Assembly (NCBI RefSeq): GCF_036669915.1
Contig: NC_089325.1
Span: 12,480,735 to 12,544,734 of the forward strand
Source: Pocillopora verrucosa
Lineage: Eukaryota > Cnidaria > Anthozoa > Scleractinia > Pocilloporidae
DNA length: 64,000 nt
Reading direction: 5' to 3'
Position 1 is the first letter of the stretch. Each line of letters begins with the position of its first letter. Both the position numbers and the translations under genes were made by a program. The notes below the pieces were generated by a model, which ran no database searches, was not told the DNA's origin, and worked only from the letters and a program-made list of their open reading frames with translations. Positions 891 to 37,327 of this stretch are shown piece by piece.

Positions 891-952
891 ACATCATCTT
901 TTGATGCTATTGTTGATTTTAATATTATAATTGTTTCTGTTCTTTTTTTCAG

Positions 953-2601
953 CGAATGTGGGACCCTGCAAACTTGATGGATTTGACAATGTTATTCAAA
1001 TGACAGGCAGCAAAGGGGAAGTTTTTTCGCCCAAGTTTCCTCCGGGGACCCCTCCCAGAGACATGATGTGCACATGGACAATCACAGTTCCTGAGAGACA
1101 CTTTGTCAGGTTCAACATGATTTTATTCAGGTTTGATGGCGACTGTGGGAAATGGAACACCAGCCTTGAAATTCGCGATGGAGGGAGTTCAGCCAGCAAT
1201 TTGTTAAAGTTATACTGTGAATATATCTTTTATGGACGAGAGCTCTTCTCTAGCGGTCGGCAACTTTGGGTTAGGTTCAAATCTCCCAGGGCTGATTGGT
1301 CGTTTTTGCCTCGGTTCAGAGCAGTTTTTGAAGCAGTGAAACAATGTAAGGCTTTATTTATTGAGTGCTGTTGAATTTTTCTCTATGTTGTGTTAGTTGC
1401 CAATACGAAAGAGACAGTATTTGCAAGGAAAATCATCTTTGCGGCGTCTTAACTATTATTGTATTGTATTGTAATGTTTTATTTCACTCTACGGCCCGCT
1501 AAATTCAATAATTTGTTTGATATGAAATATTCCTCCTATATTTGAACCCAGAGATATCAAATACCCTTGCTACCCTTATTTCTCGGTCTGCACCGTAAGT
1601 TACGGAAACTCGTTTTTTTCGCTCCGTGTTAGCCTGCGCGCCCCGCGTTGGGGCCGTACATCCGTGTTGAAAAAAACTCGGTCCGCGAACTCGGTTTGTA
1701 AGATGTACTTAAAAGCGAGATTATCCTATATTTAGGGGGCTTGTAAATAAGGGGTCGTGAATACTGACCTTTAACAGAACGAAGGTAAATATTACACACA
1801 GAGACGTTAGGAACTGATGTGCATTCATGCATACAGCCGCTAGCGCGGGAAAACATTTGCAACCAAGTCACGTTGGTTTTGATTTTGCTTCTAATTGGTC
1901 GAGAGCCTGTGTCACTTTTCTGGAACAGTAATGCACTGCAGTGATGAAAGGAAATGCATTACAATGAAATACCAGATACTTCTACACTCGATTTTAATAT
2001 TGCTCTTTAGTGTTACCTTTTTAGAAAGGAAATTTTTTTAATTTTTATTTTCGTATTTTCAGTACCAGCCCCCTATTCTTGCGTGACAGATAAGCGCGAC
2101 TTTGATCTGTCGTCGGAGACTGGTGCCCTAGCCAGCTACAACTACCCTCTGCCGTATGATCTGCCGTATACAGTTGACTGTACCTGGACAATTAAGACTG
2201 GGAAACTGAGAAAAATCCAACTGTGGTTCGACTCGTTTAATCTAACAGACACCAATCCAGAGTGTTCGCATTCTGATGTCGTCGAGGTCGGAGATGGCGA
2301 CTGGTCTCTGGGTGGGACACTGATTGGAAAATTCTGTGGATCACAGATGCCTCCAGTTATAAACTCAAATGACTCCACCATGTGGGTCCGGTTTATTACC
2401 ACTGGAAAGACGAAACATCCCGGATTTAAAGCGAGCTACAAATCAGTTGGTCAGTATGAGTACCATGTGTGCGTGTGGCATGGAAATTCTTTGGATTTGA
2501 GTTTTGCGTATTTTACGGACAGCGGAGACGTAGCCAGGGGGAGGTCCAATGTTACTTGTGCGCCCCTTACCCCCTCCCTCCCCCCCCCACTTTGTGAGAT
2601 G

Positions 2602-2638
<37 letters not shown>

Positions 2639-3289
2639 ACTATTTCAAAACGCTCAACCTATATAATTCAGGTGGCGAAAAAGTGCAAATCTGCAGAATC
2701 TACACGGCACGAAAAATATCCCTTATGGTGAAACAAAACCTAGATGTAGACATAACGTTGGGGTGGATAATCTAAGTGTTATTTGCCTGAACCGCCCCCC
2801 TCCCCCCCCCCACCCTTTTAAAAAGTAACATAGTCACGCCGTTGGTTGGTCTTCGACCCTTTTTGGGGATGACAGGAGATTTTAAACTTTCATTCAACAA
2901 AAGGGTGGATTCTCGAGCGTATATTTATTTTGCTCTGTACGCGCAAATGAAGTGGTTGTAACTTTCCCCATATCTTTCTCTCGGGGCCTGAAAGTTTTCC
3001 CCTCCCCCACCCCCTCCCCCCTCCCCCCTCATCCCCTTTCTCCTTCCCCTTCTTTTTTCCCTCTTTGTTAGAACGAAGCCGTAATTTATTGTTGTTATTG
3101 TTACTCTCCCCAGTGTCCACTCAAGGCATTCTGGTGATACTGGCCGGTTGTCTCGGTGGGGTTCTTCTTTGTTTAGTGATTGGAATTGGATGCCACAGAT
3201 ATTGCAGGTCACGTCGATATCGAGCTACACGCGGTGACGAAATTTTAGTTATTCCGTTGCGCGAAGAAGATGTCGCCACTGAATTGTAA
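953..3289 (+). CDS. CUB gene A: 3' part of a multi-CUB single-pass membrane protein
   Basis: Three visible exons: 953-1345, 2063-2449 and 3114-3289 (stop TAA). Junctions use TTTTTCAG, GTAAGG, TTTTCAG, GTCAGT and CCCCAG, and all introns are phase 1, so frame is kept; the visible part is 318 codons including the stop. Exons 1 and 2 each encode one CUB domain: C..W pairs (CTWTI), a DG acidic site, FCGS, and an F.A.Y ending. Exon 3 encodes a transmembrane helix (residues like ILVILAGCLGGVLLCLVIGI), then a basic CHRYCRSRR stretch and a short acidic tail ending VATEL, a class I PDZ-ligand pattern. CUB domains are extracellular protein- or glycan-binding beta sandwiches, so a surface receptor or adhesion role is inferred. 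Earlier exons, including the signal peptide, must lie left of the window. The two CUBs closely resemble exons 5 and 6 of gene B, so A and B are tandem paralogues. Confidence 0.85.
2601..2638. repeat. (TA)n microsatellite
   Basis: An almost pure TA run in intron 2 of the visible part of CUB gene A. It follows a C-rich tract at 2560-2590. Confidence 0.9.
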
Positions 3290-6032
3290 ATGAGCCTGTT
3301 AATATGAACCATGAATTCTTAGACCAGTGTTGCTTCAGTAATACTAAAGCTGCACGTGATTTTGAGGTCAAATGAAGGGTGACTCTCTTGCAGCAATTAT
3401 AAACTCCAAGTCGATTTTTGCTCTCCATGCATTGCAAGAACATTGGTGGAAAGAAGAGACTTCTCCTACTTTAGAAATCACCTACTGGTGCTCAGAGAAA
3501 AAAAGGAGAAAAAAAGATGAACTTACAACAGGGGGTTGCTATACCAAACCTAGGGTAAAGCTGGGTTAATTTTGGTGGACCATATTCTGAAAAATATTCA
3601 GAAAAGTGATATAACTTTATTTGTTTTGAATTGTACACATCACTGAATTTATAACACGCTGATACCTTGGACATTGTTAACTACAGTTAAACTGTAATAT
3701 TAAATGAGGTGCTGGCTGTAGTTACACATAAGATGTCCACAAAACGTTTGGTTATGAGTGAGATTGTTATTAAGGACAAGTCGTAAAGTATAATGGTCGA
3801 AAAATAGATTGCTCCCGGCCTTCCAATCCCCTTTACACGTGAAGTGCCTTGTTGAGTCACACAAACAGCACCCTGAAACGTTTGTTTTTATTATTCCCAT
3901 GGCCATCTTCGACTTGTTCCACTTGAACGATAAGTATTGGATGTTAATTGGGGTTAATGAGGGTTTTTTGGTGCCGTTTTCTGAAGCCAGAAGTTGTACA
4001 GTTTCATGCTCTACAATTAGGACCAGCAATATCAACCGTGGGTATCTTTTTGCTTCGCAATAAAATCGGTTGAGCCCGATTTACGAAGTACGGCGAAGCA
4101 CTAATCCTGAAACATCTGAAAGTTGAAAATGTCGCGAACACTCGCTGAATTTGTAGGGTTGTGATTCACGCGCGCGCAACTGCGACCATTGCGTATGCGC
4201 GCAAAGTATGCGCCATAGGAAAAGCAAGCACTATGATGAGAGCGCAAGTGGCTACTACAATCGCGAGCTTTGATCCAAACTTGATCCAAAAACCGAAAAA
4301 CCTACCTAGAGCTCATTGTGGCTGAACCATAAAGTCCAGATTTGTGTAAAGTTAATTATCACTCCATGCAGTAATCTTTAGACCATAATTGGCTCGTTTT
4401 ACATCCCTAGAGCTAAGTGAAGAGGCAGGAAAGGAAGAACGCGCGTGACCGTTAAGCGTGACACACCTCTCACGTCCTTCTCTCGTCCCAATCTCTTCTT
4501 AGACGTTGGTTTCCTCAGCTAAATGAGAGTGGAGTAACCAGCAAGCCAAGTAATTGGAAAAATTCTATTTATTATCCCGGGCTACACTCGTTGTTTAAGT
4601 GGATGTTGTTCTTCTGTGGTGAGTAGGCATTTTTAAAGTTAAGCAAAAAATGTCAACACGTTGTGTCTTGTCCAAGGCGGCAGATCTGTAACGGGATGTT
4701 CTATTATTCAGCTGTAACGCCACACGCCAGTATGAAAGCTGTTTACGTACTTCAGCAATTAAGGTTTCTTCACATGATGAGAGAAAGTTCGATGAAAAAA
4801 AGTGGCCATGCTGCATTTTATTGACACGTTATTTTTCCTTTAATTAATTTATTTATCACGCAAGTACTTTGCATCTGAACTCGTGTCTCTTGTTTTTGTC
4901 TGAATCGAAGGGCATGTACGTTTTCTTCTCTAAGGTCTAAGGGTCACGAGGCCATCAGTGTTTTTACTACTGTCGAATGAAACCTCTTTAAAGAAAGCCT
5001 TTGCTATAATTACAGTACACCGAAATGGTAAAATTTTGGAGAAAAATTACTCAACCATAATCAATATCGGAAACAAAGGCGATTCCATTTTGTATTGTAG
5101 ACTTCTACTTCGGTTTTTATTTACACTAGATCGTAGAGATTTCTTTAAGATTCTATTAACTACGTAGGCTTCCCAATGGTGCCTTCAGAGTCAGTCGTGT
5201 TTATTTGAAAATATTTAAAAATAAACGAAAACGCTTATTTTCAATCTTATCTTTGATAAATTGATGGTTTTGGCTGAACAAAAACTCTGATGCAACTTTC
5301 TGGTCTCGAATAATAAGTATTTCTATGTTTACACAGGCTGATGTATGAACTATATAATATCAGTACAGAGTGGGTAAACTGAAAGATTTTTGGGTGGGGG
5401 GAAGGGGGTCTTCTTTGAGGAACTTAACATTGATAATCTGTAATCCAAGGTGTTTGAGATGGGGGGGGGGGGGAGGGGTGGTGGTTATAAGTTTCAACTG
5501 TGGCAAGGCATCATATTTTATAGCATGATATGTAAGTAAATGACTAGATGTCAACCCTCGATGTTTGGTAAATATGTATGTCAAATCACTTGCACATGAT
5601 TTATACCAGAAGAGTAACATTGCAGGTTAGTGTCAGTCAATCAGTCAGTTTTTTTTTATTATGAGCAATTTAAGAAACTACACCATTGAAGCTTTTCTAT
5701 ATCCTCAACTACTGAAGAAGGGAATGCTATCTTACTTGGGCTGTCTAGGGGTGTGAAGCACCTCAAGGGGTGTAGTTTGGACCCCATTCAATATGAAGTT
5801 GGGTGCAGATTTAGCCATTGGCTTTGAAATTGGTTGAAATGTTACGCACTGTCCAGAATTGGGTTCATGAGTTAGCTATGTCTAGAAATGTACATAGCTT
5901 TTTAAGTTATGTGGGTTGAAAAGAGGTCTTGGAAATTGCCTATTTTGTTGTTAAATGAGGGTATTGTCTTTGGCTGAATGACAGAGGTCAAAATTATTTA
6001 TTATTTTACAGTTTCTTCATGATCATTTTCTG

Positions 6033-6241
6033 AACCCTTTATCTCCTAAGATCTGATTGTTAATTCTCCCTCTGGCTGCTCAACTTTTTCTCATAAATTA
6101 GTTACAAGAATTTGGAATCTGAGTAAGAAAACAATTTTAGCTTGATAAATTTTAGTTTTCTCATTAACCATGTGCTGGAGAATGTAGAGATATTACAAAG
6201 AGAATTTGCATCTTAATCACTTCTGGGAGTTACAGGGTTAA
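6033..6241. repeat. MITE-like element, family 1, copy 1
   Basis: It begins AACCCTTTATCTCC and ends GGGAGTTACAGGGTTAA, which are inverted ends. The interior shares AATTCTCC..., GAGAATTTGG-like and TATTACAAAGAGAA-like segments with copies at 15509, 20429 and 57554. It has no coding capacity, so it is a short non-autonomous DNA element by structure. Confidence 0.6.
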
Positions 6242-6294
6242 CTCTGGAACAAAAAGTTACTTTAACCCTATACAACCTAACATCAGGATGCATA

Positions 6295-6352: not shown

Positions 6353-8703
6353 ATTTTTTAAGGAGCTGGCAGGAGGTTTAGCAATCAACAACTTCTTTAT
6401 TTTGTGATCATTTCCTTTATTCTCATTACCTTAAAGTGTGATTCAGGGGTGATATCATAGGGGAAAATTAGATACCAGTCTCCCTTGGGGTCAAAGGGTG
6501 AACACTCATAATCATGTTTACAATGTGTTCTATCAGAAGATGTGTTTATAAATAGGTGAATGTTACTATCCAGCTGCACTATGTAGAATAAAAATAATCC
6601 ACGAATCAAATACAAATATCATGCAATATTTGGACAGTTTGTTATTATGTATTGTGTAAAAAACCTGTTTAACCAGCCAGCTGTGCATGCTATAGTATTC
6701 TACATATCTGCTCTACTTTTCCTGCCCTCTAAGAAATGCATATAAAATAAAGCAGTTGGGTAATAAATAACTTATTAAACATTTTGGTGCATATATAGTA
6801 TGGTTCAGTATTTTTACTTGTTGTTTGAATTTTGACTAGCCCTGTGGGCTCATCAAAATATGGCACAATTTTTAAAAATACTCAGCAATACTACACACCA
6901 AATTTTTAATAGGTTATATAAATTTAACCCCTTCTATTTTGGACTTTCAGGTTTGTGTGTCCTGTTAAAGGCATTGACTGCTGAAGGTACATAGAGTTAT
7001 ATTTTAATAAGTAGACAATATATTGGATATACCTTTATATAAATTACAGTAAAATTTATTGAACAATTTTTCCCTGACCTGATGAAAATAAGTTAATTGT
7101 GCTAACCAAGGTGAGGTCAGTATTGTAATAACGACAGACTGCAATTATGCGCAGAATTATGTCTCAATTGCGAAGTGCACAGGCAGTAAATCTGAGCAGA
7201 AAAACAAGGTCCCTTTACACTCACAATAAACACTGAAAAAACAAAGTTAGTAAGATATTTATTACATCTTTGGGTTCAAATAGAGGGCAAAGATTGCAAT
7301 TGAAACAAAATATTGAATTTAGTAGTCTGTGCATACTAACTGAGAGATCTGATGATTTATATGATAATCATATATTTGCTTTCAAACCCTTGCTTGACAT
7401 CAGCAGATTTCTGTTTAAGCCTCTGTTTTATATGTTGTTTTTTTGTTTTTGTTTTTGTTTTACAAAACCAAGACTTTACAGAGTAGCAATTATTTGCTCA
7501 GAGTTAGGGTGACTGTGATGCAGTCATTCATTTCATTGAACCTTTTTACTAGTCTTCTTTTTAAGTATTAGACCTCTGATACTTTGTCTCTAATCCCTTC
7601 TGTCCATAATTGGGAATTCTATCTGCCTTCTCAAGTTTTTTTCTTTTTTTTTTCAATAGATTGGTATCAATCCAATTTATTTTGTGTATTTGTGTATCAA
7701 GTCTCTTCTTGAATGCATCGTCAATCACCCCTGTTTCTTCCAATTGCAACTTCCCCTCCCCTCCCCTCCCTTGTTACATTTGTCACTTCTGGTTGTTCAA
7801 CTACCAGTTGAAATCTAGCAGTCGTGTTGAAATAGTGCCATCTTATAAATGGTATATTGTGAGGTACTGAAAAAGGAGATCCGGCTTCTTTGTATAATCA
7901 GCAAGAGGGGGGGAAGGGAAAGGGGTGGTAGAAGGTGGCTAGATGTCCATGGCAGGAGGAGTTTTGTCCTCTCCCAAAAGTTTGGATAAGTAATTCAAGT
8001 TGTGGCTCACTGATAGGCTCGGCTTACGTTGTTTTTTAGAGCCCAGACTTCACTCCACTAAATAATGGGAGGAGCGTTGGCTCGTTTATCGACCAGCGGT
8101 TGTCAGTCGAGCCCAACTTGATGATGAAGTATCCCAGTGTGACCTCTGACCCAACTTAGTCTAGACCACTATCTGTTTCTTTTATATTTATCTGTTTTTA
8201 ATTAAATTTTTGTTAAATGCTTCTTTATACAACGGAAAAAATCCGGGTGCGTAACAATGTGATTAAATGCGGGCAGATTGCCCAGCGAAAGATCTCTTTT
8301 TAGTACAAACAATCTTAACTTTCTCTTCTTTGAAGCTTTAACTAACATTCGGTACTTCAAACAAGAGCGACTGTTTAATTTTAAGCAAGTTTTTGTTCTC
8401 TGGTTTTTAGGATGTCTTGATTGAGGAGTTGTTTTATGTGATTATTTTGTTATAAGTTCTAAAAACTTTGATTACGAAGAAAATTGCAAGACAGAAGTGA
8501 GAATTAAATTACACAGTCGATAATAGGATTTACCAGTTCGTTAAAAAGGTAAACATTGCGGGTGAGGAGCCGAAAAAAGTAATCTGGAGGTCACTGAATC
8601 GTTACAAAGCGGCTTCAGGTTATCTTTGGTAAATGTTTTGATTGGAGGGGCAACGTTTTGTTATCAAAGGGACGATGACAGCGGTTTGTTTTGTGTAACC
8701 GCA

Positions 8704-12394: not shown

Positions 12395-15300
12395 CTTGCA
12401 GGGAAAACCAGCAGTCGACAGTCACGTTAACGAATTCAAATGGCATAATTTCCCCTGGATATTTTCCGAAAAATGCGGTATGCAACTGGATTCTAACAGC
12501 TCCCATAGGAAGTGTGTTCAGAATATCACTCAACGTCTATGTTAACAGACAAAAGTTACCCTGCAGTGGTAATTATGTGAAGATCTACGATGGAAGCGAT
12601 GTTGGCAGTGACGTTATGTTTGAACATGACTGTAGCGGGAAAAAGGATTTCTCAGGGTATTTTTTCTCTTCTGGTCGTCGCGTGTTACTGGAGGTAAAGA
12701 CAGGAGCAGAGGAAAAGTCTACGGGATTGATTTTGAAATATGAAACCTTTGCTAAGCAAGGTAAACTTTAACCTAGAGGAAGGGTACTCTAATGTAGATT
12801 ATTAGAGTATATGCCTCTTTTTAGGGCCTTAGTTTGCTCTCGAGCCCAGTGCTTCATAATGCTTGAGCTTACTACTTCAAAAACCATACCTCTCTGAGCA
12901 GTTCTCGCGTAAGATGGCTTGCGATAGTTATAGAGGTATGGGAGACAACGATAGTTTTACAGCACCACATCTAGAAAGAGTTGTAAAATACAACTGAGGG
13001 TAGGCCAAGAAGGATCTCGTAATCCCACTGGCAAACACCCATCTAAGACCTTAAGTGTACCTGTCATCGCCAGAGAAATTGGTCCTCCTCAAAAATCTCT
13101 CAGCTGAATCATTGTTTATGATACTCTCTGCTACCCCCCCCTTCCAAGGGGGGGGGGGTAGGTGGCAGGGCAGGGTAGGGCAGGGCAGGGCTGAAGCTGA
13201 GGCCACCACCCAAGATAGACTCTTACTAAGGGGGGAAGTAACTCTGAAGGTCGTTAAACCACTGGTAGAAGAAATTGAGGGAATCGAAGTGAGAATTCCT
13301 CGGAGAAATCGTAAGGTGAGGTGCGAGGAAACTATACAGCGTCTTTCTCATGAAAGGTGGTAGCTATTTGCTTTGAGTTTGTGCGGGATAAGGGTTAAAT
13401 CCCCCTGTGAGTTTAGAGATCGATTTCCTTTAGTGTGGTAAAACGACGACAAATCAGGAAATCGTAAAATGGGAAATTTCTCAAATAGCCAGTAACAACT
13501 CAAATTAAAAAAAAGGACCAACACCTGATGTGCGAAAAACATCAGCGAGCCAGTTGCGAATGGTTTTATTTTGGCCAAACCAATTACAATGCAAGATAAG
13601 GCAAATTCAGTGCAATGCCGAATTTTTTTGCGACATTTAGTTGGAAGTTTCTATTGTTAACCGTGACATTAAATCGTGTTCCCTTTTCTAGAGCCATGTT
13701 CTATAAACAGTACCTTGGATGCTCCACTGTCGCCAACTGAACGTAACTTCACAAGCCCTTACTACCCTCATGGCTATCCCTTAAATACAACTTGTGGATG
13801 GCACATCACAGCTCCTCGGAACCACGTGGTTATGCTTTTGATAACACAACAGCTGGATCTTCGTGACAGTGTGGAAATTTTCGATGTAGATGGCGCCCAA
13901 CTCATTCCCATTGATATTCCAAAGAATGAGCTTTACTCGAAGTTTCAATCTGTCTACGTAGTCTTCAAGAGCGATCAGAGGCCACGAACGTTTCTAAACC
14001 AAGAGAAGGGGATACTTGTTCGTTACTCCGCAGTAAGGAAAGGTAAAGCTTTGGCGGAGTATGAAGGGACGAAGGTGGCGGTTTGGGTTGAACCACAAAA
14101 CTCTAGTGGGTCGTAAAAGTCTTGGCACGTTCTTCTAATTATTGAATTTTCCCTTTGACTTTTGTTATTTCTCCCTTCCCCCCCCCCCCCCCCCTTCCCC
14201 CCTTTCAATGTTGCTTGGTGCTAACAAAATAGTCACACATTTCAGGAAATATTGTATGGGGGGAGAGGGTAAGGGGGGACTCGAAAGTAACTTACTAGAG
14301 ATGAATTGCAAGATTTCTGTTTATTATGTTGAGTGGAGGGTTGTTCCAACCTCCTTTGCCACTCATTGTAGATCTTGCAGGATCATCAATGACCTCCATT
14401 TTTGTGATAATCTGAATTATGACCGACCTTGCTGATTGTCTAACTGACCAACTAAATGACTTAATGGCTGGCTAGCTGTGTGATTAATCATTTGATGACT
14501 GTTTTTTTTTTTGTTTTATTTGATTATTTTTTCCATAGTAACCACCTGTTCTTTTGGAAACTCCTATGACGAGAACATGAATATCTTCTTCGAGGATTCT
14601 TCAGGAACAATCGAAACTCCCGGGTATCCAAGTGGTTATAATAACTCCCTGATCAACGAGTGTTCCTGGAAGATAATCGTACCCACTGATAAAGTGGTAC
14701 GAATAGAATTCACATCTTATCGGCTTGGACAGTACGATTATGCTGAAATCGCTGATAGAATAAATGGGTTACTCCCAATTTCTATTTTACTTTCTGGCAC
14801 AGAACCATCGTTTAAATTCTATTCAACTGGACGCGAGCTTAGTATAAAGGTGACAGCTCGTTCAGATCAAAAGAGTGGTCCAGGATTCATTGCAGACTAC
14901 ACTGCAGTGCCTGCGGGTGAGTCGGTCAGTCTGTTATACAACGTGTCCGTTAGTCTTTCCGTCAGTCAATCTTAGTCCATATGTCTGTCTGTTTGTTTGT
15001 AAGAAAATCGTATTGGTGATCATGTTGTCAGTCTTTCAGTCAATCAGCTACCGAGTTAAATTTGTACTGTGGTATCCAATCACTCTGGCTCTTCATGCAG
15101 GTCAATGGGTCAGTCTGACAGTCAGCCAATCAGTCAGTCTGATAGCCTGTCAGTGAGTTAGTCAGCCAGCCAAACAGGGGGTCAGTCATTTAGTGAGTTA
15201 GTTAATCAGTTTGCTAATCTGCCAGTTAGTCAGTCAGTTAGTCAGTCAGTCTGTTGGCTATACATACCGTCCGAATCTGTTTATCAGTCTGTTCGTCGGC

Positions 15301-20894: not shown

Positions 20895-23800
20895 CTCTAT
20901 TAACAGCCTCATATTTTATGACAAATCCTTTCTCGCGTCCTTGAGAATTGGAAACAAATCGCACGTCAACTTCTTCACCGGCCGACGTGGTGTCCGGAAA
21001 ATTTCCGCAGTATTTACCCCTTGAGCGGGTATCGTCTGCAGTGACGTCACTAACTTCAACAAAGTCTGCGCCGCAAGGTTTTGCCAACTCAAATTTATCA
21101 AATTTCAGATTCACTCTCTTTCCTTCAGGGGCCTGAAGTTTCCAAGTGCAGTCCATGTTGTTAGGATACAGTCCGGGTATCCACGGGGAAGAAATGGTAC
21201 CTGGAACAGAAGCGTTGATTATTTGGTTTTTTCCTCCAGTACAGTGGTCGGTAATCTGGCCTTTAACTGCAAAACATCAAAAAAAAAACTCAATTAAGGA
21301 CCAGTTATGATTTAGCCATGGGGAGAGGAGGGTGGAGGATTTTGGGGAGAATCACATGGTTTTCAGGGGGGAACGGAGGGGAGATCAGTCGTCGTCAACA
21401 GAGTCCAAGTGGAGGACTATAGAAAACTGACCGGGGAAATCATAAGAATATCCATAGAGTCTTGGGGGAGGGGAGGGGAGGGGGGAATAAGGTAAATTTT
21501 ATCGTGTTGCATCCAAAATTCTCCAACTCCCTCCCCCCCGTGCGAAAAAAATTGACCAGTACTGCGAAAAAGGCACACACCCTGTCATTCGGGCGAGAGC
21601 AGTTTGAAGGCGACTGTTGACTGTTGTCAAATTTCAACAGTTGATATATTCACTCTGATGAAGAATTTCGTTCAGGTTGTCGGAACGTGAGTCACAATCA
21701 CCAATAACAGTCCCAATCAGGACTTCTCCGCGCTCGACCGATCAGACTGCATAATCAATCTTTACTCTAAGGTGAAAACATTTATGGTGAAACATTTCTG
21801 ATAAAGAGGTTTGAACTCACGTTAACTGAGCCGTGAGGAAGAAATGAATACAGGCAAAATAATTACCTCTAATAAAGTCGTTGGACTACAAGGAATTGTT
21901 TAAAAATAAAGAGACCTTCACGGATTGGAAAGTTTTCGTTGAGAAAAAAATCAACGTAGTCATAGTAACACCACGACATAAAAGATACGTTAAGACAGAA
22001 TCAAAAGTTAATGGTATAGGATGCAGAAGCTTGTTTTCGTTGGCTCTTGAAAAATTTTATTTCTTATCAATAAAACATCAAAGCTCGTTTCTTTCAAATA
22101 TCTTCAGGAAACTGCTTTTTAAATCGTTGATATTTGCCCTAAATTCCTGTCCCGAGCGTTCACCCTTTGTCAGAGCAAATGACAAGAGGCTAACGCTCGA
22201 AATGTCAGCTCAACAAACTCTTTGTGGTGGCTGATTTACACTATCAACTCAGTTGATGGAACCAAATTATCTTATAATACCTCATCGACGCAGCACCGCA
22301 GTCTTATGTTAAAAACTTACCCCCTTTATTCAAATTATGAAAGTTTCGTCGCCCCTCACTGACGAGTGGAATACTTACAAGGTAGTGATTCGAAAGTAGC
22401 ATTGAAGCCATTTTCTGCCGAGGCAAATGATCCATCAGATTTGAATGAGACCCACAATTTTCGACCGCGGAAGACTGGTAGTTCACGCTCACCACAAAAC
22501 TGACCTAACAGCTGGCCATTTTGATCGCCATCTCGAATGACAACTTTATCGTCGGGGCACTGGGTTTGAAACACACGGAAGACCAATGTCATGAAGTGGC
22601 CGGCTGGGGCCTGGAGAGTCCACGAACATTCTCTGTTTGGCGGATACTTTCCTGGAAACGTCGGGGAAGTGAGGTACCCCCGTGTGAAAAGTGGGGGAAT
22701 TGTTTTTCCTTGGCTGCATTTGGCGATCTCAACTAGGAGAGATATTCAAGCCTCTAGTTAACCCTAAGAGAGATTTATATCCAAATTCTCCTCACATTAC
22801 CACCCCTGAATCAAACACGAAAGCCTGGGAATAAAGGCAATTATCAACAACTAAAGAAGCTGTTGTTGTTACCAAATTCTCCTTGTTAGCACCTCAGGAA
22901 ATTTATGAAGAACAGTTTGGAGAATATGCATTCTGATGTTAGGGTGTAAAGGATTAAAGGCGTTTGAATTTTCTGTGAAGAGTAGAGAAGAACTAAAAAC
23001 TTCAAAATATGAAAAAGGTTTTCAACTCAAAGCCAGGCTTGTACTTTAACCCTAACTGTTTGTTTCTTTGAGGAGAAAATTTTAAATAAAATCGAGAAGT
23101 CCAGAAAGTCCCTTAGGAGCCATGGAAACTTCGAGATAATATAAAATCCATGATTACTTATACAGTCAGCATTAATATTTACGAATTTCTGGTGATTTCA
23201 TTGTGTGCACCAATTACTCAATTATTCTTTCAATTTCGTCATTCGTTTGTTTTGTTTTCTTGTTCTGACTTTTTTAATTGGCTCGTTTGGTTTTTTCTTT
23301 CTACTCAGATCAGTGAGAAAGTTACTTTTCGATTCTAAGAAAGCGATTATTCAACAACCCAGGTTTTCGAGTTATTACCATGCGCACTTATCACTCGGTA
23401 ACTTGTGCAGCGTTAATGTGCGCATATGATGAATCAAATATGTTAATTTTACACCACACGAACATATTTTATGCAGAGACAAATCACCTGGCACTTAAAT
23501 ATAAAGCGCTGTTCGACTAGGTGTCACAAAAAAAAAAGTACCAATGGTAACGTTAAGTGAAAACAACCAAATTGCCTAAAGCGCTGGGAAACGCGGGCGA
23601 CCAAGTCGTGATTGGTCTAAAATTTGTATCTGATTGGTCGAGAAAGTGGCGCGAGTTTTCTGGACAAATCACAGTGCGAAGTAACGCAAACCAAAACAAT
23701 ACCTGATTGCTTTCGACGTTCAATTGAAAATTATTCTATTTAGAATTACCTTCATCAATAACTCGGTAAAATCCACTGAATCCATCAAAGGGATCTTTTT

Positions 23801-25943
23801 CATTGGAAACGAAGAAAAAGTAGAGTGAATTTTCAGAAGAAATAATTGGAGCTGGCTTGTTTGATCCACAGAACTTGCCGATCAACGGACTCTCCCCGCT
23901 TGATCCGTCTCTGACAGCAATGTAATCACTCCCACATTGCGGAAATGCACCCTCTAATTGAAAGGAATCGAAGGACAACTCAATCCTATCGCCCTCTGGG
24001 GCCTTAAACAGGTAGGTGCAGTTGAGATTCACAATGTATCGGCTCGGATAAGAGGGGCTTTGGAAGATCATTGATGAGCCATTTGCGTTGAATGTGATAT
24101 CGCTCTTAAAACGGCTGCAACTCTTTCGTTGTGCTAGAGATGAAAAACGGAAATGAATTATCAGATGCTCAAGGTGCTGTACATAATTGATAAGAAACGG
24201 CTTTGAAAAAGACAACTTTATGGTAGTTCATAAACCTGCACTTACCTGAAGAACTTGTTGTTTGCAAGATTACAATGAAAGCTGTGTGAAAAAATAATAA
24301 ACACATTCCATTTCTAGAGCAAAACAAAATTCTTACTCGTTATTTTAGAGAGTAGCTCAGTAGGTTAGTATAGCCAATATGAGTTTAGATTCAAGTTGAA
24401 AGTATACAAAATGCTGCTGAAACCGTTTTATTTTTTATATCCAAAAGCGATGTTCGAAGTTATGACACTGACTGCGGTTTTAGCTCTCAGAGAGCATCCA
24501 ACCTTTCGAAATTTGCCTGCAAAAGCGCCTGAATTTCGTTGACAGACGCCGCCATATTGAATCTTGCTAAACGGCTTGGCTACTTATCCGGGACGAAATA
24601 GTCTCGATCCTCTTTCTTCCGTCTGAAGAGAAATTTTTCGAACAATTGTCAGCCTTGCAAAAAGGCATGTCTGATCAAGATTATAAATTTTTGTTTGTTC
24701 TTTTTCTCTTTTACATCAAGTAGTTGATTTCAAAATGGCGGCCTCCAAAGTTGAATTTTTTCGAATTTTTTTAGGTTACTCTTGGCGATCTTAACACGCG
24801 GTAAATATTAAATTCTTATAAATAATGTGTAATGTAAGCGATGAAGAAAGGATGATAATTTGCATATTCAGTGAATTAGACGGTCAGGGTTCTGCTGGTA
24901 CTTAGTGGAGAAGTCCGCCAACTTTCGCCACTTAACACCTCACCTCTTTCTCAACTACAAAACTAAAATAAATATTCATTTATCCAAATGTACTTTCCTT
25001 GCCCAAACAACAATGGAAAGGAAAGACAAGTGAAATTAGTCGAGTGAATATTCAAACCGGAATTTGGCTATCTATTAGTATGAATTTGTTAATGTCGCAC
25101 ATTTCAGGGTAAAATTTAATTGAAAACCTTTTTTTTTTACAGTATTTTATGACGTCAATTTAGCACTTCCACGAAATATATATTTTTACCAAGTGTTGTA
25201 CAACTTCAAAGTTTTCGCGGAAGTGCGTACAATTACCCCCATGGCTTTTTAGAGAGAAAGATATAATGAGAACCTCGACGACAACACTCGAAGATATTAA
25301 ACTGATTAAACCGCGACATGAACGAAACCGAAAAACCTCTTTGGGTCTTAATAAAACGTGGATATAACTGTAGTCTCTCGATTGCAGTTAAATTGCTTAT
25401 AGAAATTACTACGAAATTACTCATTCAATAGGTAAAGAAATTGCTTATCGATAGTAAAGCGTTAATGAATTCAAAGTGGGAAATCGTAAATCGAATGTGT
25501 CGGTGAAAATGGATTGCCAATCTTCTGCTAGTCGAAATCTGGAACGAAGCTGAAAAAATTGCTCAGATCAATTTTGTCAACGTACTATTTTTAACTGGAG
25601 TGAATAACAACTAAGCTTGCCGGAATCTTCACAAATGTTGACTGATTCTTCTGTGTATTAGCCGAGGGAACTGGCCCATATTCTGAAAAGTTTCGGTAAA
25701 GATTTCTCTTCTTGCTCAACCAGTTTTAAAAGTTTTAGAACAGGCCTTGGGTATCAGGGTATTTATATTCTGTACTTTACGTCGATATATTAAGACTGTG
25801 ACTTGTGTGATTGTTTACACTTTGGCCACGGTCAAACAAGTAGCAATCCTGTGTTGTACGCAGAGCACTACGGTGTCCAATGTAATAATAAAGCACTCAC
25901 CACATAAAGAGGCCAGGAAATTTACAACTGTTTTGGTTTTCAT
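20895..25943 (-). CDS. CUB gene C: secreted or membrane three-CUB protein, 3' end unresolved
   Basis: Exons on the - strand: 25943-25901 (43 nt, ATG), 24281-24246 (36-nt microexon), 24133-23750, 22732-22379 and 21266-20895. All introns are GT-AG and phase 1, giving 396 codons so far. The first two exons together make a signal peptide (MKTKTVVNFLASLC then AFIVILQTTSSS). Each later exon is one CUB: CUB1 (SPSYPSRYIVNLNCTYLF, FCGSNKPAP), CUB2 (SPTFPGKYPPNRECSWTL, FCGERELP) and CUB3 (SPWIPGLYPNNMDCTWKL, YCGNFPDT). The last exon ends at donor GGTAAG, so at least one more exon is expected, but none with a TM segment was found down to 18140. If the donor is skipped, the frame runs 18 codons to a stop and would give a secreted protein. 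An alternative ATG at 24306 reads through the microexon acceptor and is less likely, because the 43-nt exon matches genes D and E. Confidence 0.75.
21300..21430 (+). repeat. G-rich dispersed repeat (ATCACATGG...ATCAGTCGTCG), copy 1
   Basis: It contains GGAGGATTTTGGGGAGAATC, ATCACATGGTTTTCAGGGGG and GATCAGTCGTCGTCAACAGA. The same word order recurs at about 44925-45070 (+) and 54848-55000 (-). Its G-runs could form quadruplexes. Confidence 0.7.
21655..21775 (+). repeat. Dispersed repeat with AACGTGAGTCAC core, copy 2
   Basis: CGTTCAGGTTGTCGGAACG, GAGTCACAATCACCAATAAC, CAGTCCCAATCAGGACTTCT and GACCGATCAGACTGCATAAT match, in order, the reverse complement of the copy at 11095-11200. Confidence 0.6.
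22140..22320 (+). repeat. Dispersed repeat (CTAACGCTCGAAATGTCAGC core)
   Basis: It includes GAGGCTAACGCTCGAAATGTCAG, TTTACACTATCAACTCAGTTG and GACGCAGCACCGCAGTC, ending AAACTTACCCCCTTTA. A fragment with the same right end (CAGCACCATAGTTCCTTTAG ... CTTATCCCCTTTA) occurs near 63708-63745. No coding capacity. Confidence 0.5.
23590..23735. repeat. Dispersed repeat with GATTGGTCGAGAAAGTGGCG core
   Basis: A compact block (GTGATTGGTCTAAAATTTG, CTGATTGGTCGAGAAAGTGG, CACAGTGCGAAGTAACGC) ending a few bases before the 3' end of CUB exon 3 of gene C. A partial relative (TCTAATTGGTCGAGAGCCTG) is at about 1890. It carries CCAAT-box-like words on both strands. Confidence 0.45.
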
Positions 25944-27278: not shown

Positions 27279-30200
27279 TTACTCCGCAACAGGCGTGAGA
27301 TTTTCCCGCGAAAAAGTGCCATGTGACTGCGATTGTTTCCTCTCATTTCTGTCGCACGACGTCCATTGCGATGTGAGCAATTCCTGCTCTGATAATGACT
27401 CCTTACGTGTGTCTGAATTCTCCATTACAGGAGAGAACTGAAGGTCTATGTGTTCCCCGGATGAGGAAGCCGTGCCACCTGTGCAGTTCTGCTCGTTTTC
27501 TTGGTTTTCACAGCCAGGTGTCAAAGTATTTTCTTCGTCCGAATTTCTTTGTTTTCGTTTAAGGTAAAGAGTTAATATTAACAAAATCATCATCAAACCA
27601 AGCATAGTTGACACACCTGTGATGACCAGTATCAAAGGAGGAGAGTCTGGGTTAGAAAAACAAACAGAAATAAATCAGTAAATTCGAAATGTTTCCTCGT
27701 TGTAAAACTTTGACTTGACTTAGCGAGTCGTCTGGCCTCTTCGACTACAAATCATGCAAATAGTGACAAAAGGCTCTGAAATCAATATTATGGGGGTATT
27801 AGGGACTTAATCAAAGCACGAAGCAGCATTAACAATAAGATTCAAAGGTGAATCATACTCCAGAAACCATACAAATTTTATCTCTCCGTGTGACGTCAAA
27901 GGTAAGTGGCCAGGCTGCGAAGCAGGATCTCAAAATGGCGACTTTCATAGTCGAATTTTTAGCACATTTAAAAACGATTTCCAGGAGGTTTAGTTTATCA
28001 TTGGAAAACGAAAACACCTTAAGTGACATAATTTTCAGGATATTTTTGTCATGTCTCACTATATATGCACAGTTCCATAGGCGCGTTGGGCACCTTTTGC
28101 CGGGCGCACGACTCCGTAATGAAATTTAACTTGTTGTGTTACTGGACTGGAATCTTCAGTTTTCGATCACTCGCAACGCCAGTGCATTACAAATTTGTCA
28201 AGACGAAGATGAAATTTTTATGGTTTCTTGTTTTTACTCCTTCAATGCACAGAACAATATCCCAGCGCGTACGACAGTCGAGAGCCCGACAGCAGTGTAA
28301 TAATAGTCCATTTTACTGCGTGCTTGGTTGCCAAGCCTTTGAACAGGAGTGAGGTAAAGGGTGACCTTGTTATGATACAAACCTTGCTGCTTTTCAGATG
28401 TAAATTACTTTGTTATCATACTTATTAGATACTGATCTCTATCACGACATGGTCACCTTTAGTCTCACTCCAAATCAAAGGCTTGGCAATTAAGTACACA
28501 ATTGTAAAATGGCTTATTCCTTTGATGGTTATTCAACGCAGCTTTCGTTTGTAATGCTGTAATGCTGAAGGGAGCACAAGCAAAGCCACCTTTGAAGTAT
28601 CCATAATTGAAACAGCGCTTTCATTTCCCAAAGACATTTATGACCTCTTCAACTATAACACACTTTTAAAACTACAACTGTGGTCTGAAATAAGTTACCC
28701 TTTGCGTCAGGAATGGGAATTTATTCCCATCTCTTCTAGGACAACACCTGCAGTATAAACTAGACTTACCTTTAACAGCTATATATTTCGCTTTGAACTT
28801 CACAGATCTGTACGGGTTTGCCTTAAATCTCACCCACATTTCGTTACTAGTGGTAGAGATCTTCTCAGGTGTTGCGTGGCCACAGAACAAACCGAGCCGC
28901 TTACTGTCACGGTGGACTCCGTCACGCACCTCTAAATAAGGAACCTCCTGATTGGCTAAACACGGAGGGGAATCTCCCAGATCAAAGAACTCAAATTCGA
29001 GATTGATAGAGTGTCTCTTCTTGACGGAAATGTACCAAGTGCATTGGATGTCATCCATGAAGGATTCAGGATATCCTGGGCTCGAAAGCTCACCTCTCTG
29101 TTCACTGATCTCAATTCTATCATTCTCGTCCGTTGTGCAGTTCGGCGAGCAGCCTTCAGTACTCTTCCTCACTGAAAATATGAGAGAAATTTGTTGAGAA
29201 AAAGAGTCCTGGTAAGATTACGAACTTGGAAACAGAGACCATGAGCTCAGTTCACTACCTCTTGCTTGGATATTACATCATGAAAAAGAAATCGATGGTA
29301 TTCTAATTTTTGTAAATGTTAGTTTGAGTGTATTTCTATAGTTAAAGTGGTTACATTTCTATCTGAACGATAAAAGAGGTCGTCATTCCCCAGCTCAATG
29401 TTTTGAAAAAACTTACACCACAAAATGAGGATTCCTCAGGAAAATTATGGCAAAAGCAAAGCAATTTTTCACCATTCCAAACTTTCATTCAGAATAACAA
29501 ATTTCTCTTATCTTTTTTTCTTTTTTTCACCAGATCCAAGAGAAGTTAATCTTCAATGCTTAAAGTTAAAGAGTATTATGCAATCTGTTGTTTGAAGAAC
29601 GGTTACTCATCTTGTGTGTTTGGATTTTTATTACTCTGTTCACAGTTATGAAGTCGATTGCATACTTTCGTGCCTCGGCTTATCTCTGAGAGTCACGTTA
29701 TCACGAGTCTTCTGACTCTGTTGGTGTGAAGGCATGGATGTATTGGTCGGTGAGCGCTACTAGCTCTCTACGGTTGTTGATTGGAGAGGGGGGGGGATCT
29801 CGTACCTGTCTTTTCGTGTGTCAATACGGGTATGTCCTTCGCATGAAAATGAATGTGGTACGGGTACGTTGTTTGAGGAAGTTGATGTGTGTTGCGCGTA
29901 TGATCGCATTTTGGGTCACTAGTTATGTCCTACTTTATTGAGAGCTTTGCTTTCAGATCTCCTGCTGTTCTGCTCCTCTCTTTCCTAGGTTAATTCATGG
30001 TCAGCTATACGACACCTTTCCTCACTCCTTCCATCTTCTCCTCACCTTTTTTCACAAGGATTCAAGAGAAGTAATCTTCAATGCTTAAAGTTAAAGAGTT
30101 CTTAGACAATCCTGTTGCTTTGAAGAACTTCAGATTCAGACAAGTAGTAAAAATCTAAGGATATGTGATTGAGAAGATGGGGGGGGGGATAGTCGGGACG

Positions 30201-32168
30201 AAATCTGAACTCCCGCCCCCGGATCCCTCCTTTATTTCGCCCAGCCGAGTTGTCAGCCGAGTACATTGCACCCAGGATGATCAGTGCATCAAAAGGCCCT
30301 CCCGTTTCTCAAAAGCGCTAGTAGTTACGAGGTTTACCCCCACCGCCCACCCTCCCACCCCCCCCCCCCCCCCCCCCAAAAAAAAAGCGACAAAACAGCA
30401 AATCCAAAACAACAACAACAAGGTTGGCTAGCATTCCTTACTTTTAGATCCTAAGATTTGGTTCAGATCCGTAGACCTTTTTTTTACCCGAAACTTTCGT
30501 TTTTTTTTGATTGAAAAGGCACGTCTGAGGACCATTTTATGTCTTCAGACCAGACCATTCTCGTTTCTAAGATAATACCATGTCCTGATGTGATCGGGAA
30601 TAAATAGAGAGAACAATTTCTGGGTTTGCCCGATTCCCTACCCCTCACCCCTTGCCCGACTTAGCCCCAAACGCGTAACCTGAAGCCGCCCGCCTGGCAA
30701 GATTTTGATGCGATCATTGATTAGATAACAGCTGCCACTTAGACACAGCAGTACACGATTTTTAATTAAATAGCATCATCAAGTTCGCTCCTCTCAATTA
30801 ATTGAAGAATAACCAATTCCATTTAAGTCATTATTGAGTCAAAAATTATCATCAGGATTAGAATAAAACATTTAACGACTTAACTTTGAGATGAATATTA
30901 TGATAAATAGCTCAATGATTCCTGTTGACACCACCTAAAGTTTAGGCGCCCAAAAAGGCCAAAATTTGACTGGGAACAAAGAGCAATTGGATTCTACTTA
31001 CACGACGAATGTCATCAAAACAGTACGATTTCAACTGGTCAACCTGTTTTATTGTTTTAAAACGAGTTAGATTGAAAAACATATGAAAATAATTTGCAGC
31101 TTGGATCGGCCAATGCGACAGAATAATATTTCTGTCCGTTCACCGGCGCTAGATCAAGTTTTTTTGTAGGACAAGGCAGAGTGATTCCTATTAAAGTTTA
31201 TTTGGCTTTTTTTAACAAAAGGTTAGAGATATTAACGTCAGTTTAAAACATTTCTTTGACTTTTTGACGTAAATCTAATAAACCATGAGTCAAGTCTGAC
31301 AGAATTTAAAGTGAGTGGAGTCTCGACTGTCTTTAGATTATTACAGAGGAATGACTACATTTAACCTTTAAAAGTGCCTTACAAACCTCAAACATCCACG
31401 AAGAAAGGGTGAATATTATCGATATTTTTTGATACTGTTCATGGCATAGCGGAAACATTCCCCAAAGTAAAAAATATGTTTTAACCAGTGACTTTCAGTG
31501 TACTTCATTCTTGCCAATTTTATTTTGTTGAGAGGCTGTATTTGTTTATACGTTCGGCGAACGCACGCAAGTGAGCCACTTTGGGGGAAATGAGCTAATA
31601 ATCTGCGTTGTTTCCTGTCTCGAATCCCTTTGAAACATTTGTAGACCACAAATTATCACATAAGCTATGAACGACTAGGAGGATTCTACTCGTTCAATCA
31701 CGAGGCGAGTTACATAATATCACAAATGCCCCAGCCGAACTCGAGAAAATGCTCGCCTTGGTTTGACTGAGAAGTGACACTTGAGTTCGGTTTAAAAAGG
31801 AAGCTGACAACACACTGGTTTCTGTTCTGTCTTCATATTCAAAGACAGCCGGGCCTTGAAACGAAATTAGTGCGTCGTTGTCTAAATCCTTTGTTTGCCC
31901 ACGAAAATACCAAGAACATTAGCTTAACTAGGCCAGCACAAAGTGTGCGGTTACTCGCAACAATGAAACGGGTCTCGGTTGAGCGACAAAGAATGGCTTC
32001 TAATCGGTCTCAGCAGATTGGAAATTATGTCAGACTGAAGGAACTTTTCTACCTGAGAACGGTGCAAGTTTAAGTCACGTCACACTCAAAACGAAGTAAA
32101 ATTATGAACAGCTTGAAGTACTTACGTAAAACAATCGCCAGGAGAACAAGAGAGAAAGGAGAATCCAT
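27279..32168 (-). CDS. CUB gene D: single-CUB type I membrane protein
   Basis: Exons on the - strand: 32168-32126 (43 nt, ATG), 29171-28770 and 27646-27279 (stop TAA). Introns are phase 1 and GT-AG, giving 270 residues. Exon 1 encodes a signal peptide core, MDSPFSLVLLAIVL. Exon 2 is one CUB with an ELSSPGYPESF start, CTWYISV, a DG site (LEVRDG), FCGHATPEK and MWVRF. Exon 3 starts with SPPLILVITG, a 22-24 residue TM helix ending LTLYLKRKQR, and then a roughly 90-residue polar tail rich in Ser, Glu and Gln, with no catalytic domain and no tyrosine signalling motif that I can name. An extra tiny exon may hide in the 3-kb intron 1: GA...GGT at about 29420-29437 keeps frame and is hydrophobic. I did not include it. 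Confidence 0.8.
29521..30132 (-). repeat. Intronic direct duplication, two copies, in intron 1 of gene D
   Basis: Positions 29521-29605 and 30049-30132 share CAAGAGAAGT(T)AATCTTC, AATGCTTAAAGTTAAAGAGT and GTTTGAAGAAC-type segments in the same order. Both follow a CACCAGATCC- or CACAAGGATT-type start after a pyrimidine-rich run. The roughly 440 bp between them is not duplicated. Confidence 0.65.
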
Positions 32169-34445: not shown

Positions 34446-37327
34446 TTATTCTCTTGTCACCAGTGTCCATCCGCGTTTTATCCAGGACGGGAATTTCCGC
34501 GTTTCCTTGGGAAGAACTAAATTACTATCTGTAACTGTGTCACTGTGTAACGATGCTTTACTCCGATTTTCTATGGGTGTAGCAGGAGAAACCTTGATTG
34601 TTATTCCCGGCCTGGTTTTATAGACTTTGACGCGGGTTGATGAAAGAGAGTTTCTCCTTTTTATTGCCGAAGCCACAACACCAACTAGAATTAAAATGAA
34701 AACTACGACGGCCGATGCCACAAGAAAAGAAACAGCTGATAGACCTGGAGCAAAGATAAAAAATGAAACATTCACATCAGGCCATGCTTAGATGACCCTT
34801 TTAGATATTCTCAAAGGTGAAGTACACCTTAGAGCATTACGTTTAAGGGCCGATCTTTATTTATCGCCTGAGAGGGGTCTCAGGATTTTGGTTGTGTCAC
34901 CATTGAATGCGGAAAAGGCAAAAGCGCAAACGCTTCTGGGTCGTATTGATTTTTTTGTAGGCTACGTACGATTTTCTTAAACGCGAACCTGTGTCTAATG
35001 CTTTCTAGCAAACTTCGAGGTAAAAAATGGTGGAAAGTTATATGACTGCTCCACCGAAAAAATCCGCTTCGACCAAGGCTTGTTAGGTCATAACCGCCTG
35101 CCGCCTGCCCGCCGTCTCAGGTGGGATATGATTGAGTGAACTTACCATTCGAAGTATCATATGTGGTATATGACATCTTAAAGCCTCGCTTCTCCACAGA
35201 CCCATCTGAACGGAAGTGAATCCACATGTGATTTCCGGTTGAGAGGACGTCATTAGGTATTCTGCTACCACAAAACGTTCCAATAACTGGACTATTTGAG
35301 TATTTCCCGTCCCGAACCGACACAAAATCGTAATCTTGGCAAGCAGGACTGGCGTTTTGAAGATCAAATGTTAGAAAAGAAAGCTTTATCCTCTTCTCTT
35401 GAAGAGAAATAACCCATGTACAGGTTAGATTTCCGGGATAGGCTTCAGAAGTGTCGTAATCAGGGCTACAAAATGTGTCAGATGATTTAGTCAAAAATAT
35501 GTTATTGTTCAGATTTGAAGTTTTGTTTCTGGAGCATCTTGTTTCTGTAAGAAGAGGATAAAACTATTCATTGTTTGAATCTGTTAGTATTTGAGCAACT
35601 TCGCACCCACCCCTCCCCTAATCCAGCATTAACTCTAACTTGTTATCATTTGACCATTCTTGGGTTCAGGGAGGGGTGGGTGCGCATTCCATTAATTTCG
35701 GACTGTAGTACATTTACGTAGACAGTTCATGTAGATAGGATGACAGAGGCCTTGAGGAACCGGTACCATCAGGTATTTGACTTGTTTGTTTGCATTGTTC
35801 GTTATTTAGACCTCGAAAACTATCCTCCAGTTTAAACAAAGCACAAAAAAAACATAAACACGAGAACAATGAAAATGTTTAAGAAGTAATGATTTATGAC
35901 CCGTTTAGTTTTCAATAAGTCGTTGCGGAGTGTTAACATCCTCTATATGATGAGCTGAATTATACACGTATTTTGACTGGTTCTTGCTTTTGATCCATTG
36001 CATAGAGGATAGACGCAAGGATAACGTTACTATTAATTTTTTTTCCCACCAATTCTTCGTTATCACATAAAACAAATTGAATCCATGTTTCCGTGGGTCT
36101 GTACAGTAATAAATCACAGACGACTAATAAATGTGGTAAGGATCTGTTTTGTTCCTGCCTTATTTTGATGTCATATGTGATCAATTACTGAACAGACCTA
36201 AGGCAGCATAAAATCTATTTGGTATTAAAGTATTTAACAAACAATTATTTTCAACTCACCGCTTAAAACAAAGATGCGTAACAGGTTAAAGAAATCTGTG
36301 AAAAAAAGTTTTATATCAAAATGACTCATAAAATCTACCAGTTTATAAATTTAGTGATTGAAAGCATATGAAGTGAGTCGAAGAAATAGGATGGAGCGAG
36401 GTGCTCATATTCTCATAAATCTATCAAGATGCTAACGCACTGGTAGCCAACAGAAGAGGTTCCTTTTTGTGTGTGTTTACAGTCGGTATGAATTTAGTGC
36501 AAAGCAAGCGCAAAGGATGGATGTACGAATGAGGGACGCCACACAAGTTTTCAAGCTTCTCTTCTCGCTTTGACCCACGCTTCGTGTACGTCTCGCTCTT
36601 TTTTCCGCTCGCCTGGGAAACGATGTACTGGAGATAAATGTGTGGTGGCCTTTCTAGACTCGGTGAATCAATTATTGATCACCAAAGTACTCGCGAAATG
36701 ATTGTTATAACAGTTTTAACGACCTCCAATTTTTTTTTTTTTTCACCGATTTTAATTGAAAGAAAATCAACTTGGTCCATCATTAGTAGCTTTGCGATAT
36801 AAATTAAGGGATCAAGTTTTTAATTAAAAGACTGATCACTGAGTTCTTAACACTGATTTTGTGTACGTACCGAATTGAAGTTTAAACGGAGGAGTACATC
36901 CGGTCATGTATTGAAATGCTGTGCGGATGTCACGGTACTTTTTTAACAGGATTAGAAGCTATTACCGTTATTCCTCACAATTCGGTCACGATCGTATGGA
37001 ACCCTGGTTTTACAGCTAACAGAAATTAAGCCTGTTTCTTACTTTGAAACACACTCGAGCTGATTGAAGTTTAACAACTTAAAGCCGAGAGCAAGTGGCG
37101 AATATTTCCAGGAAAATATCATTTTGTGGAAAGGTAGTCATATATAATTGGCGGCCAGAGAGTGAAAGTCCGCACGAGAACTGATTAGTTTGAAATGTTG
37201 AATTATCATCACTGATGATTTCACAATCGAGGTCCACAAAATGCCAAAAGGACTGAATATACAAAGACACAATATTATACTCACGAACAAGCCTGAGAAG
37301 AAATGATCTTTCTAACCAGGTCGCCAT
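34446..37327 (-). CDS. CUB gene E: single-CUB type I membrane protein
   Basis: Exons on the - strand: 37327-37285 (43 nt, ATG), 36295-36260 (36-nt microexon), 35544-35146 and 34744-34446 (stop TAA). All introns are phase 1 and GT-AG, giving 258 residues. The split signal sequence is MATWLERSFLLRLV plus HFFNLLRIFVLS. The CUB exon has SPDYDTSEAYPGNLTCTW, FDLQNASPAC, VSVRDGKYS, FCGSRIPND, MWIHF and GFKMSY. The last exon gives a TM helix (SAVSFLVASAVVVFILILVG), a basic stop-transfer AIKRR, and a roughly 70-residue basic, Ser/Thr-rich tail ending LVTRE. Its layout is the same as gene D but with the extra microexon seen in gene C. It is inferred to be a surface protein; no ligand can be named. Confidence 0.85.
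35593..35692. repeat. Hairpin element, family 2, copy 1 (intron of gene E)
   Basis: The arms CGCACCCACCCCTCCCCTAA and GAGGGGTGGGTGCGCA are inverted repeats around a spacer containing CTTGTTATCATTTGACCATT. The same arms and a GATAACAAGT spacer word occur at 41010-41097. Confidence 0.75.

Follow-up and report, generated by a model that had tools for sequence, protein, structure and literature searches.

A family of genes encoding membrane proteins built from CUB domains alone occupies part of an array on chromosome NC_089325.1 (here C14) of the scleractinian Pocillopora verrucosa. The window, which is the whole 64-kb stretch analyzed (C14:12480735-12544734, from an assembly of 353 Mb in 52 contigs), contains genes A and B on the + strand and genes C, D, and E on the - strand. 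Genes X and Y lie to the left of the window. A single CUB-only gene family with a terminal transmembrane (TM) exon comprises A, B, X, and Y, two of which are outside the window. An initial annotation had placed a CUB-TM family at this locus. The family exists and comprises A and B plus X and Y, but it does not consist of A to E, as shown by a tree of 69 CUB domains.

For the tree, 33 CUBs of the array were combined with 36 from elsewhere in the genome. Seven PF00431-listed loci inside the array and background domains with identical core residues were left out beforehand. CUB positions 1 to 7 each formed a separate clade (ultrafast bootstrap [UFB] support of 98-100), the outcome expected from whole-gene duplication of a seven-CUB ancestor. 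In addition, A, B, X, and Y have in common an exon in which CUB4 and CUB5 are fused, and each ends in a TM exon. The number of CUBs within the family is 5 in A, 7 in B, and 8 in both X and Y; the range of one to seven given at first mixed unrelated genes with a truncated gene A. The CUB2 exon is doubled in Y and the CUB6-7 pair in X. With position-specific hidden Markov models (HMMs), CUB1 was detected in neither A nor X, and in A CUB2 was not detected either. The CUB5 and CUB7 clades are sisters (98/89), pointing to an older internal duplication. The locus offers clean exon-unit duplications, together with a warning against calling neighbors a family from a shared domain alone.

In leave-one-out scoring with the position HMMs, the CUBs of A, B, X, and Y beat the best outside score at all seven positions. 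The margin was clear for CUB2, CUB3, CUB4, and CUB7, smaller for CUB5 (lowest score 126.5 vs. 101.3 outside) and CUB6 (130.7 vs. 107.3), and slimmest at CUB1 (50.5 vs. 44.4). A genome search with CUB7 of gene B, in which 150 of 416 candidates were scored, gave 61 matches at 1e-10. Five CUB7 domains ranked on top, CUB5 of B was sixth (97.6 bits), and the best match outside the array reached 76.6 bits. No further CUB7 of the A/B/X/Y type was present among the 150 scored candidates. Same-position CUBs of the family are 35-72% identical. Synonymous divergence (dS) was >1 or saturated in 42 of 45 same-position pairs and ≥0.90 or saturated in 44 of them. The youngest event is the one that separated the two CUB2 copies of Y (Y2a/Y2b; nonsynonymous divergence [dN] 0.19, dS 0.38).

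Composition of the array

Candidate CUB open reading frames (ORFs) were scored with PF00431 (CUB) at its curated cut-off of 21.4 bits. All 13 candidates in the window passed, with E-values that exclude chance, and one of them holds two CUB stretches, giving 14 CUBs in 13 exons. The cut-off was also passed by 10 of 10 proteins from further scans (nine from A, X, and Y, and D1 rescored). An HMM built from the 13 window ORFs recovered the same 13 in a six-frame translation of the 64 kb (fragments of ≥20 amino acids) and found no extra CUB above the inclusion line there. The initial estimate of about 14 CUBs in five gene models therefore agrees with both methods. Likewise, every internal junction of the five models is phase 1 with AG/GT sites, in line with the proposed phase 1-1 exons, and the joined exons are free of stops. 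A TM-plus-tail exon was located for A, B, D, and E, as had been proposed for four of the five genes. One CUB per exon is not the rule throughout, since B4 and B5 sit in a single exon.

Read-through Pfam scans covered all three coding-strand frames (+ strand, 1-18200; - strand, 18136-39302), in which a short or split exon could escape. Only CUB-type models passed the cut-off, and no protease, EGF, Sushi, lectin, or LDLa domain was detected, in agreement with the CUB-only composition first described. Matches to YesK, InhA-like_MAM, bCoV_S1_RBD, SKA2, Gram_pos_anchor, and DUF7592 were all under the cut-off and were dropped.

In the 50 kb left of the window, 19 more CUBs were found in 16 ORFs. The array runs on for ~34 kb leftward and extends over ~70 kb (C14:12446435-12516278); the adjoining 40 kb further left showed no CUB where the letters were readable. 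Genes Y (CUB1-2-2-3-4-5-6-7-TM) and X (CUB2-3-4-5-6-7-6-7-TM), both on the - strand and phase 1-1, match gene B in layout. Gene A is split by the left window edge, with extra exons within 2 kb upstream. Because CUB3 and fused CUB4+5 exons were found there, A holds five CUBs (CUB3-7-TM), and its reading as a two-CUB gene was rejected as an artifact of the window edge. Pfam read-through of Y, X, and the portion of A beyond the window edge gave only CUB-type models above the cut-off, with no LDLa or protease domain. The signal-peptide candidate of X ends in LLKSLTAE and has a counterpart in B, LLKALTAE, at 6951-6986. The two segments are, tentatively, each other's best non-self match in the 154 kb scanned (10-11 bits), and a stretch upstream of Y may resemble them (9.5-10.6 bits).

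A second CUB/TM array, distinct from the A/B/X/Y family, lies 0.7 Mb away (C14:13180001-13240000, pieces L081-L086). It contains 17 CUB-matching ORFs, with two CUBs apparently split over two ORFs, as well as TM/tail ORFs. At least three of the tails have PPxY motifs, e.g., PPPPYPG. Coding-strand Pfam scans of its first 20 kb gave only CUB-type models above the cut-off. More CUB-rich stretches on C14, at 9.11-9.20 Mb and 21.25-21.36 Mb, appear in the genome-wide PF00431 search, in which 150 CUB places were scored of 608 candidates, so that its total is a lower bound.

Genes C, D, and E

In the 69-CUB tree, the domains of C, D, and E grouped neither with A/B/X/Y nor among themselves. Placing their labels on the tree takes five changes, and shuffling the labels does no worse. 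In a phmmer comparison with 63 outside loci, higher best scores were obtained outside the array than inside it for E1 (68.0 bits inside, 85.6 outside), C1 (68.2/83.4), and C3 (53.5/62.4). C2 (61.7/61.2) and D1 (66.8/64.9) were near ties, slightly better inside. A genome search at E 0.01 with the TM/tail exon of D gave no match besides the exon itself. These data bear on the proposal that A to E are a single locus-specific family of five. The five genes share their type of domain, the phase of their exons, their TM layout, and their location, and C2 and D1 do score slightly higher inside the array than outside it, but the scatter of C, D, and E on the tree, the higher outside scores of E1, C1, and C3, and the unmatched tail of D make a five-gene family highly improbable. 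The tree of CUB domains, which the initial annotation had itself suggested, speaks against it.

For gene C, the sole hydrophobic candidate for a 3' TM exon (20562-20653) was read as a repeat, because it overlaps an inverted-repeat arm (20555-20638) and a similar stretch recurs on C14. The product of gene C may therefore be secreted, or the gene model may be incomplete. The 84-nucleotide inverted repeat (15507-15590/20555-20638; 85% complementary) has one arm in an intron of B and the other 3' of C and is probably an interspersed element. An ATG at 37327, apparently taken as the start of E at first, was dropped, since signal-peptide scans gave no support for a signal-peptide exon there. The segment 36260-36329 is a tentative alternative for the signal-peptide exon of E.

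Possible role at the cell surface

Taken as a whole, a duplicated seven-CUB membrane-protein family with a role in surface recognition or adhesion is the explanation that we favor with moderate confidence. Its evolutionary part, whole-gene duplication plus gain and loss of CUB exons, is very likely. The recognition or adhesion function, as judged from sequence, falls somewhat short of probable. The ancestor would have been a type I membrane protein with seven CUBs, a single TM segment, and a short tail, of which A, B, X, and Y would be whole-gene duplicates. CUB number would later have shifted as phase 1-1 exons were duplicated or lost, events that leave the reading frame intact. C, D, and E would be other CUB genes lodged in the same array. 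At the cell surface, the proteins may form stalks of several CUBs, with proteins or glycans as ligands. For the most part, these would be bound without calcium, because most of the CUBs are without a full E/D/D set, and the proteins might act through partners or serve as anchors, because their tails are short and have no Pfam domain. If surface recognition is true, this would be a small, bounded family for studying non-immunoglobulin (non-Ig) recognition diversity in animals without adaptive immunity.

By alignment to cubilin at the positions of the E/D/D calcium-ligand triplet, A5 alone among the 33 array CUBs has all three ligand residues. No Pfam domain was found when the short tails were searched. 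The C-termini are ATEL in A, SSKV in B, LRK in X, and IRC in Y. The ends of A and B fit a class I PDZ pattern; as X and Y differ, PDZ-like tails were rejected as a family trait. A structural model of B4+B5, predicted from the aligned CUB4+5 exons of all four genes, had a mean predicted local distance difference test (pLDDT) score of 78.7, in place of a discarded single-sequence starting model (mean pLDDT 40.5). Both halves of the predicted model match CUBs of known structure. Whole-pair superpositions gave a large root mean square deviation, and domain packing is not fixed by the model. PDB searches were conducted with B4+5, B6, B7, C1, D1, and E1, which cover seven of the 14 window CUBs, and the best sequence match was cubilin in six of six. 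Neto2 also appeared among related PDB structures, both by sequence and by fold. SOL-1 and CDCP1 were not among the first 50 matches of each structure comparison, a result that excludes nothing.

Scores were also obtained with a CUB model named after CDCP1 (PF23665, CDCP1_CUB_6; cut-off 27). Among single exons, Y6 (29.4) and Y4+5 (28.8) exceeded this value, and lower scores were obtained for D1 (24.9), X6a (23.5), B6 (23.3), A1 (20.4), and X6b (20.3). Whole-frame sums were 55.5 in the Y scan and 28.3 in the scan of X and upstream A. PF00431 far outscored PF23665 wherever both matched.

The layout of A, B, X, and Y fits a known one, as CUB-only type I membrane proteins already exist. In PMC9083331, SOL-1 of Caenorhabditis elegans is described as a type I TM protein whose extracellular part has four CUBs and as an auxiliary subunit of glutamate receptors. 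The family is similarly predicted to have a CUB ectodomain and a single TM segment in a CUB-only type I layout, but it differs in its 5-8 CUBs, linked duplicates, and fused CUB4+5 exon; the likeness is one of layout. CDCP1/Trask, according to PMC3084758, also has a CUB-type ectodomain and one TM segment, and it acts through five tail tyrosines that Src kinases phosphorylate. Some CUB6 and CUB5 domains of the array match PF23665 near its cut-off. Several Src-site tyrosines are not seen here: apart from residues at the membrane boundary, each tail of genes A, B, D, E, X, and Y has 0-2 tyrosines. NETO1/2, SOL-2, and LEV-10 likewise combine CUB repeats with a TM segment, PDZ motifs belonging to the NETO tails. 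In contrast to the genes of the array, they have LDLa, none of which was found in the coding-strand frames, where a short split exon could escape. Cubilin has similar runs of CUBs; it differs from the array, in which triplets are mostly incomplete, and from the family, in which a TM exon is present; cubilin is not known to have a TM segment. Unlike CUB proteases of the Tolloid/MASP type, A to E, X, and Y showed no protease domain in coding-strand Pfam scans. In Acropora skeletal-matrix proteins, CUB is the sole known domain and is lineage-expanded, but these proteins, as presented in PMC4890752, are secreted and consist of a single CUB with a threonine-rich stretch and no TM segment. Other architectures appear in papers on cnidarian receptors, the matrisome, and the pedal disc (PMC5119243, PMC12549020, PMC8260672, PMC6626399). 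The suggestion of a receptor family not yet described as such is weakened, as examples of the CUB-only type I layout are known (PMC9083331, PMC3084758), though in the open-access literature searched we recognized nothing about linked cnidarian genes of this multi-CUB TM kind.

The likeness to SOL-1 and NETO raises another explanation, in which the CUBs bind, tune, or cluster ionotropic receptors of the same cell and PDZ-like C-termini anchor the proteins. It agrees with the type I, four-CUB structure of SOL-1 and with the PDZ motifs of NETO1/2 (both in PMC9083331). Neto2 is also among the PDB relatives. PDZ-like ends that fit the class I pattern are present in A and B, which is two of four genes; tandem whole-gene duplication with shifting CUB number would be atypical for auxiliary subunits, and the LDLa of NETO, SOL-2, and LEV-10 was not detected in the coding-strand scans. 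We therefore consider an auxiliary role unlikely. Endocytic or scavenger receptors, in which cubilin-like multi-CUB stalks take up nutrients or microbial ligands, would agree with cubilin as the best match in the six PDB searches, although its rank is partly due to the four CUBs in its PDB chain. The PPxY tails of the second array would also suit uptake, since such motifs can recruit Nedd4-type ligases. Cubilin, however, binds its ligands via calcium, has EGF repeats, and is not known to have a TM segment, and with the triplet so rarely complete in the array, an endocytic function seems rather unlikely.

A locus of self/non-self recognition, for allorecognition or against microbes, would differ in copy number and sequence among individuals. 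Consistent with this are the linkage of paralogues on the two strands, the duplication of a single exon and of an exon pair, and the further CUB-rich stretches on C14, but the paralogues are old by dS, dN is below dS where measurable, and the tails have no recognized signaling domain, so we regard such a locus as improbable. Similarly doubtful is a broader variant, in which several arrays on C14 would have expanded independently, each made of single-pass, CUB-only receptors with a common ectodomain fold and differing tails (PDZ-like ends, PPxY motifs, and unique tails), as a possible recognition repertoire. Recognition of self, microbes, or symbionts would then be based on CUBs rather than on Ig or lectin domains, and exon-unit duplication would vary the CUB count.

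Several points weigh against the seven-CUB family with a recognition role that we prefer. The splitting order of A, B, X, and Y varies by CUB position and is not settled. A is outside B+X+Y with starred support in the CUB3 and CUB5 clades and at 97/78 in the CUB4 clade; in the CUB7 clade, A is outermost too, yet B7 pairs weakly with Y7 (96/50), and in the CUB6 clade, A6 pairs with B6 (100/78), nested among X and Y copies. The tree has few columns, and its bootstrap is not settled. dN was lower than dS in every same-position pair with measurable dS, and positive selection or fast evolution found no support, dS being saturated in many pairs. As both genome searches (PF00431 and B7) scored 150 candidates each, distant members may escape. 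The signal peptides of A, B, and X are tentative, with the B/X match at just 10-11 bits, and no candidate was found for Y in the scan that gave those of A and X. All splice junctions of A to E, X, and Y are predicted. Finally, CUB and TM proteins elsewhere are channel auxiliaries, and the domain alone would be no sign of recognition.

Feature coordinates and neighboring genes

Table 1. Predicted exons of genes A to E. Positions are those of the window unless preceded by C14.
Feature	Position	Strand	Basis or remark
Gene A signal-peptide candidate, tentative, outside window	C14:12476150-12476207	+	Signal-peptide scan
Gene A CUB3 exon, outside window	C14:12478660-12479040	+	Upstream scan
Gene A fused CUB4+5 exon, outside window	C14:12479956-12480705	+	Upstream scan
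Gene A CUB6-type exon (first CUB of the initial annotation)	953..1345	+	Phase 1-1; Pfam, junctions, tree
Gene A CUB7-type exon	2063..2449	+	Phase 1-1; Pfam, junctions, tree
Gene A terminal TM + short tail exon	3114..3289	+	Ends ...ATEL
Gene B signal-peptide segment, tentative	6860..6986	+	Ends ...LLKALTAE, phase 1 donor; like ...LLKSLTAE of X
Gene B CUB1 exon	12395..12760	+	Pfam, junctions, tree
Gene B CUB2 exon	13692..14042	+	Pfam, junctions, tree
Gene B CUB3 exon	14539..14916	+	Pfam, junctions, tree
Gene B fused CUB4+CUB5 exon	15757..16506	+	Same fusion in A, X, Y
Gene B CUB6 exon	16662..17033	+	Pfam, junctions, tree
Gene B CUB7 exon	17179..17550	+	Pfam, junctions, tree, genome search
Gene B terminal TM + short tail exon	17949..18136	+	Ends ...SSKV
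Gene C signal-peptide exon	24246..24306	-	Phase 1 donor; good candidate
Gene C first CUB exon	23750..24133	-	Pfam, junctions
Gene C second CUB exon	22379..22732	-	Pfam, junctions
Gene C third CUB exon	20895..21266	-	No convincing TM exon downstream
Gene D signal-peptide exon, tentative	32126..32168	-	Phase 1 donor, ~3 kb from D1; plausible
Gene D single CUB exon	28770..29171	-	Pfam, junctions
Gene D TM + cytoplasmic tail exon	27279..27646	-	TM prediction, junctions
Gene E single CUB exon	35146..35544	-	Pfam, junctions
Gene E TM + cytoplasmic tail exon	34446..34744	-	TM prediction, junctions

Between the TM exon of A and CUB1 of B, a 287-amino-acid ORF (9321-10181, + strand) had no Pfam match above the cut-off; it would fall in the first intron of B if the tentative signal-peptide segment of that gene is right. 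A single-exon ORF of 334 amino acids between Y and A, ~7 kb left of the window (L035:2407-3408), resembles a G protein-coupled receptor, and an ORF on the left flank of the array resembles a TBC domain. To the right of the array are two convergent ammonium transporter genes (PF00909; 39265-41909, + strand, and 42905-46128, - strand). They are followed by a sedolisin/TPP1-like protease with a Pro-kumamolisin activation domain in a single ORF (55127-56905, + strand) and by an RRP8-like methyltransferase ORF (PF05148; 61527-62729, - strand).

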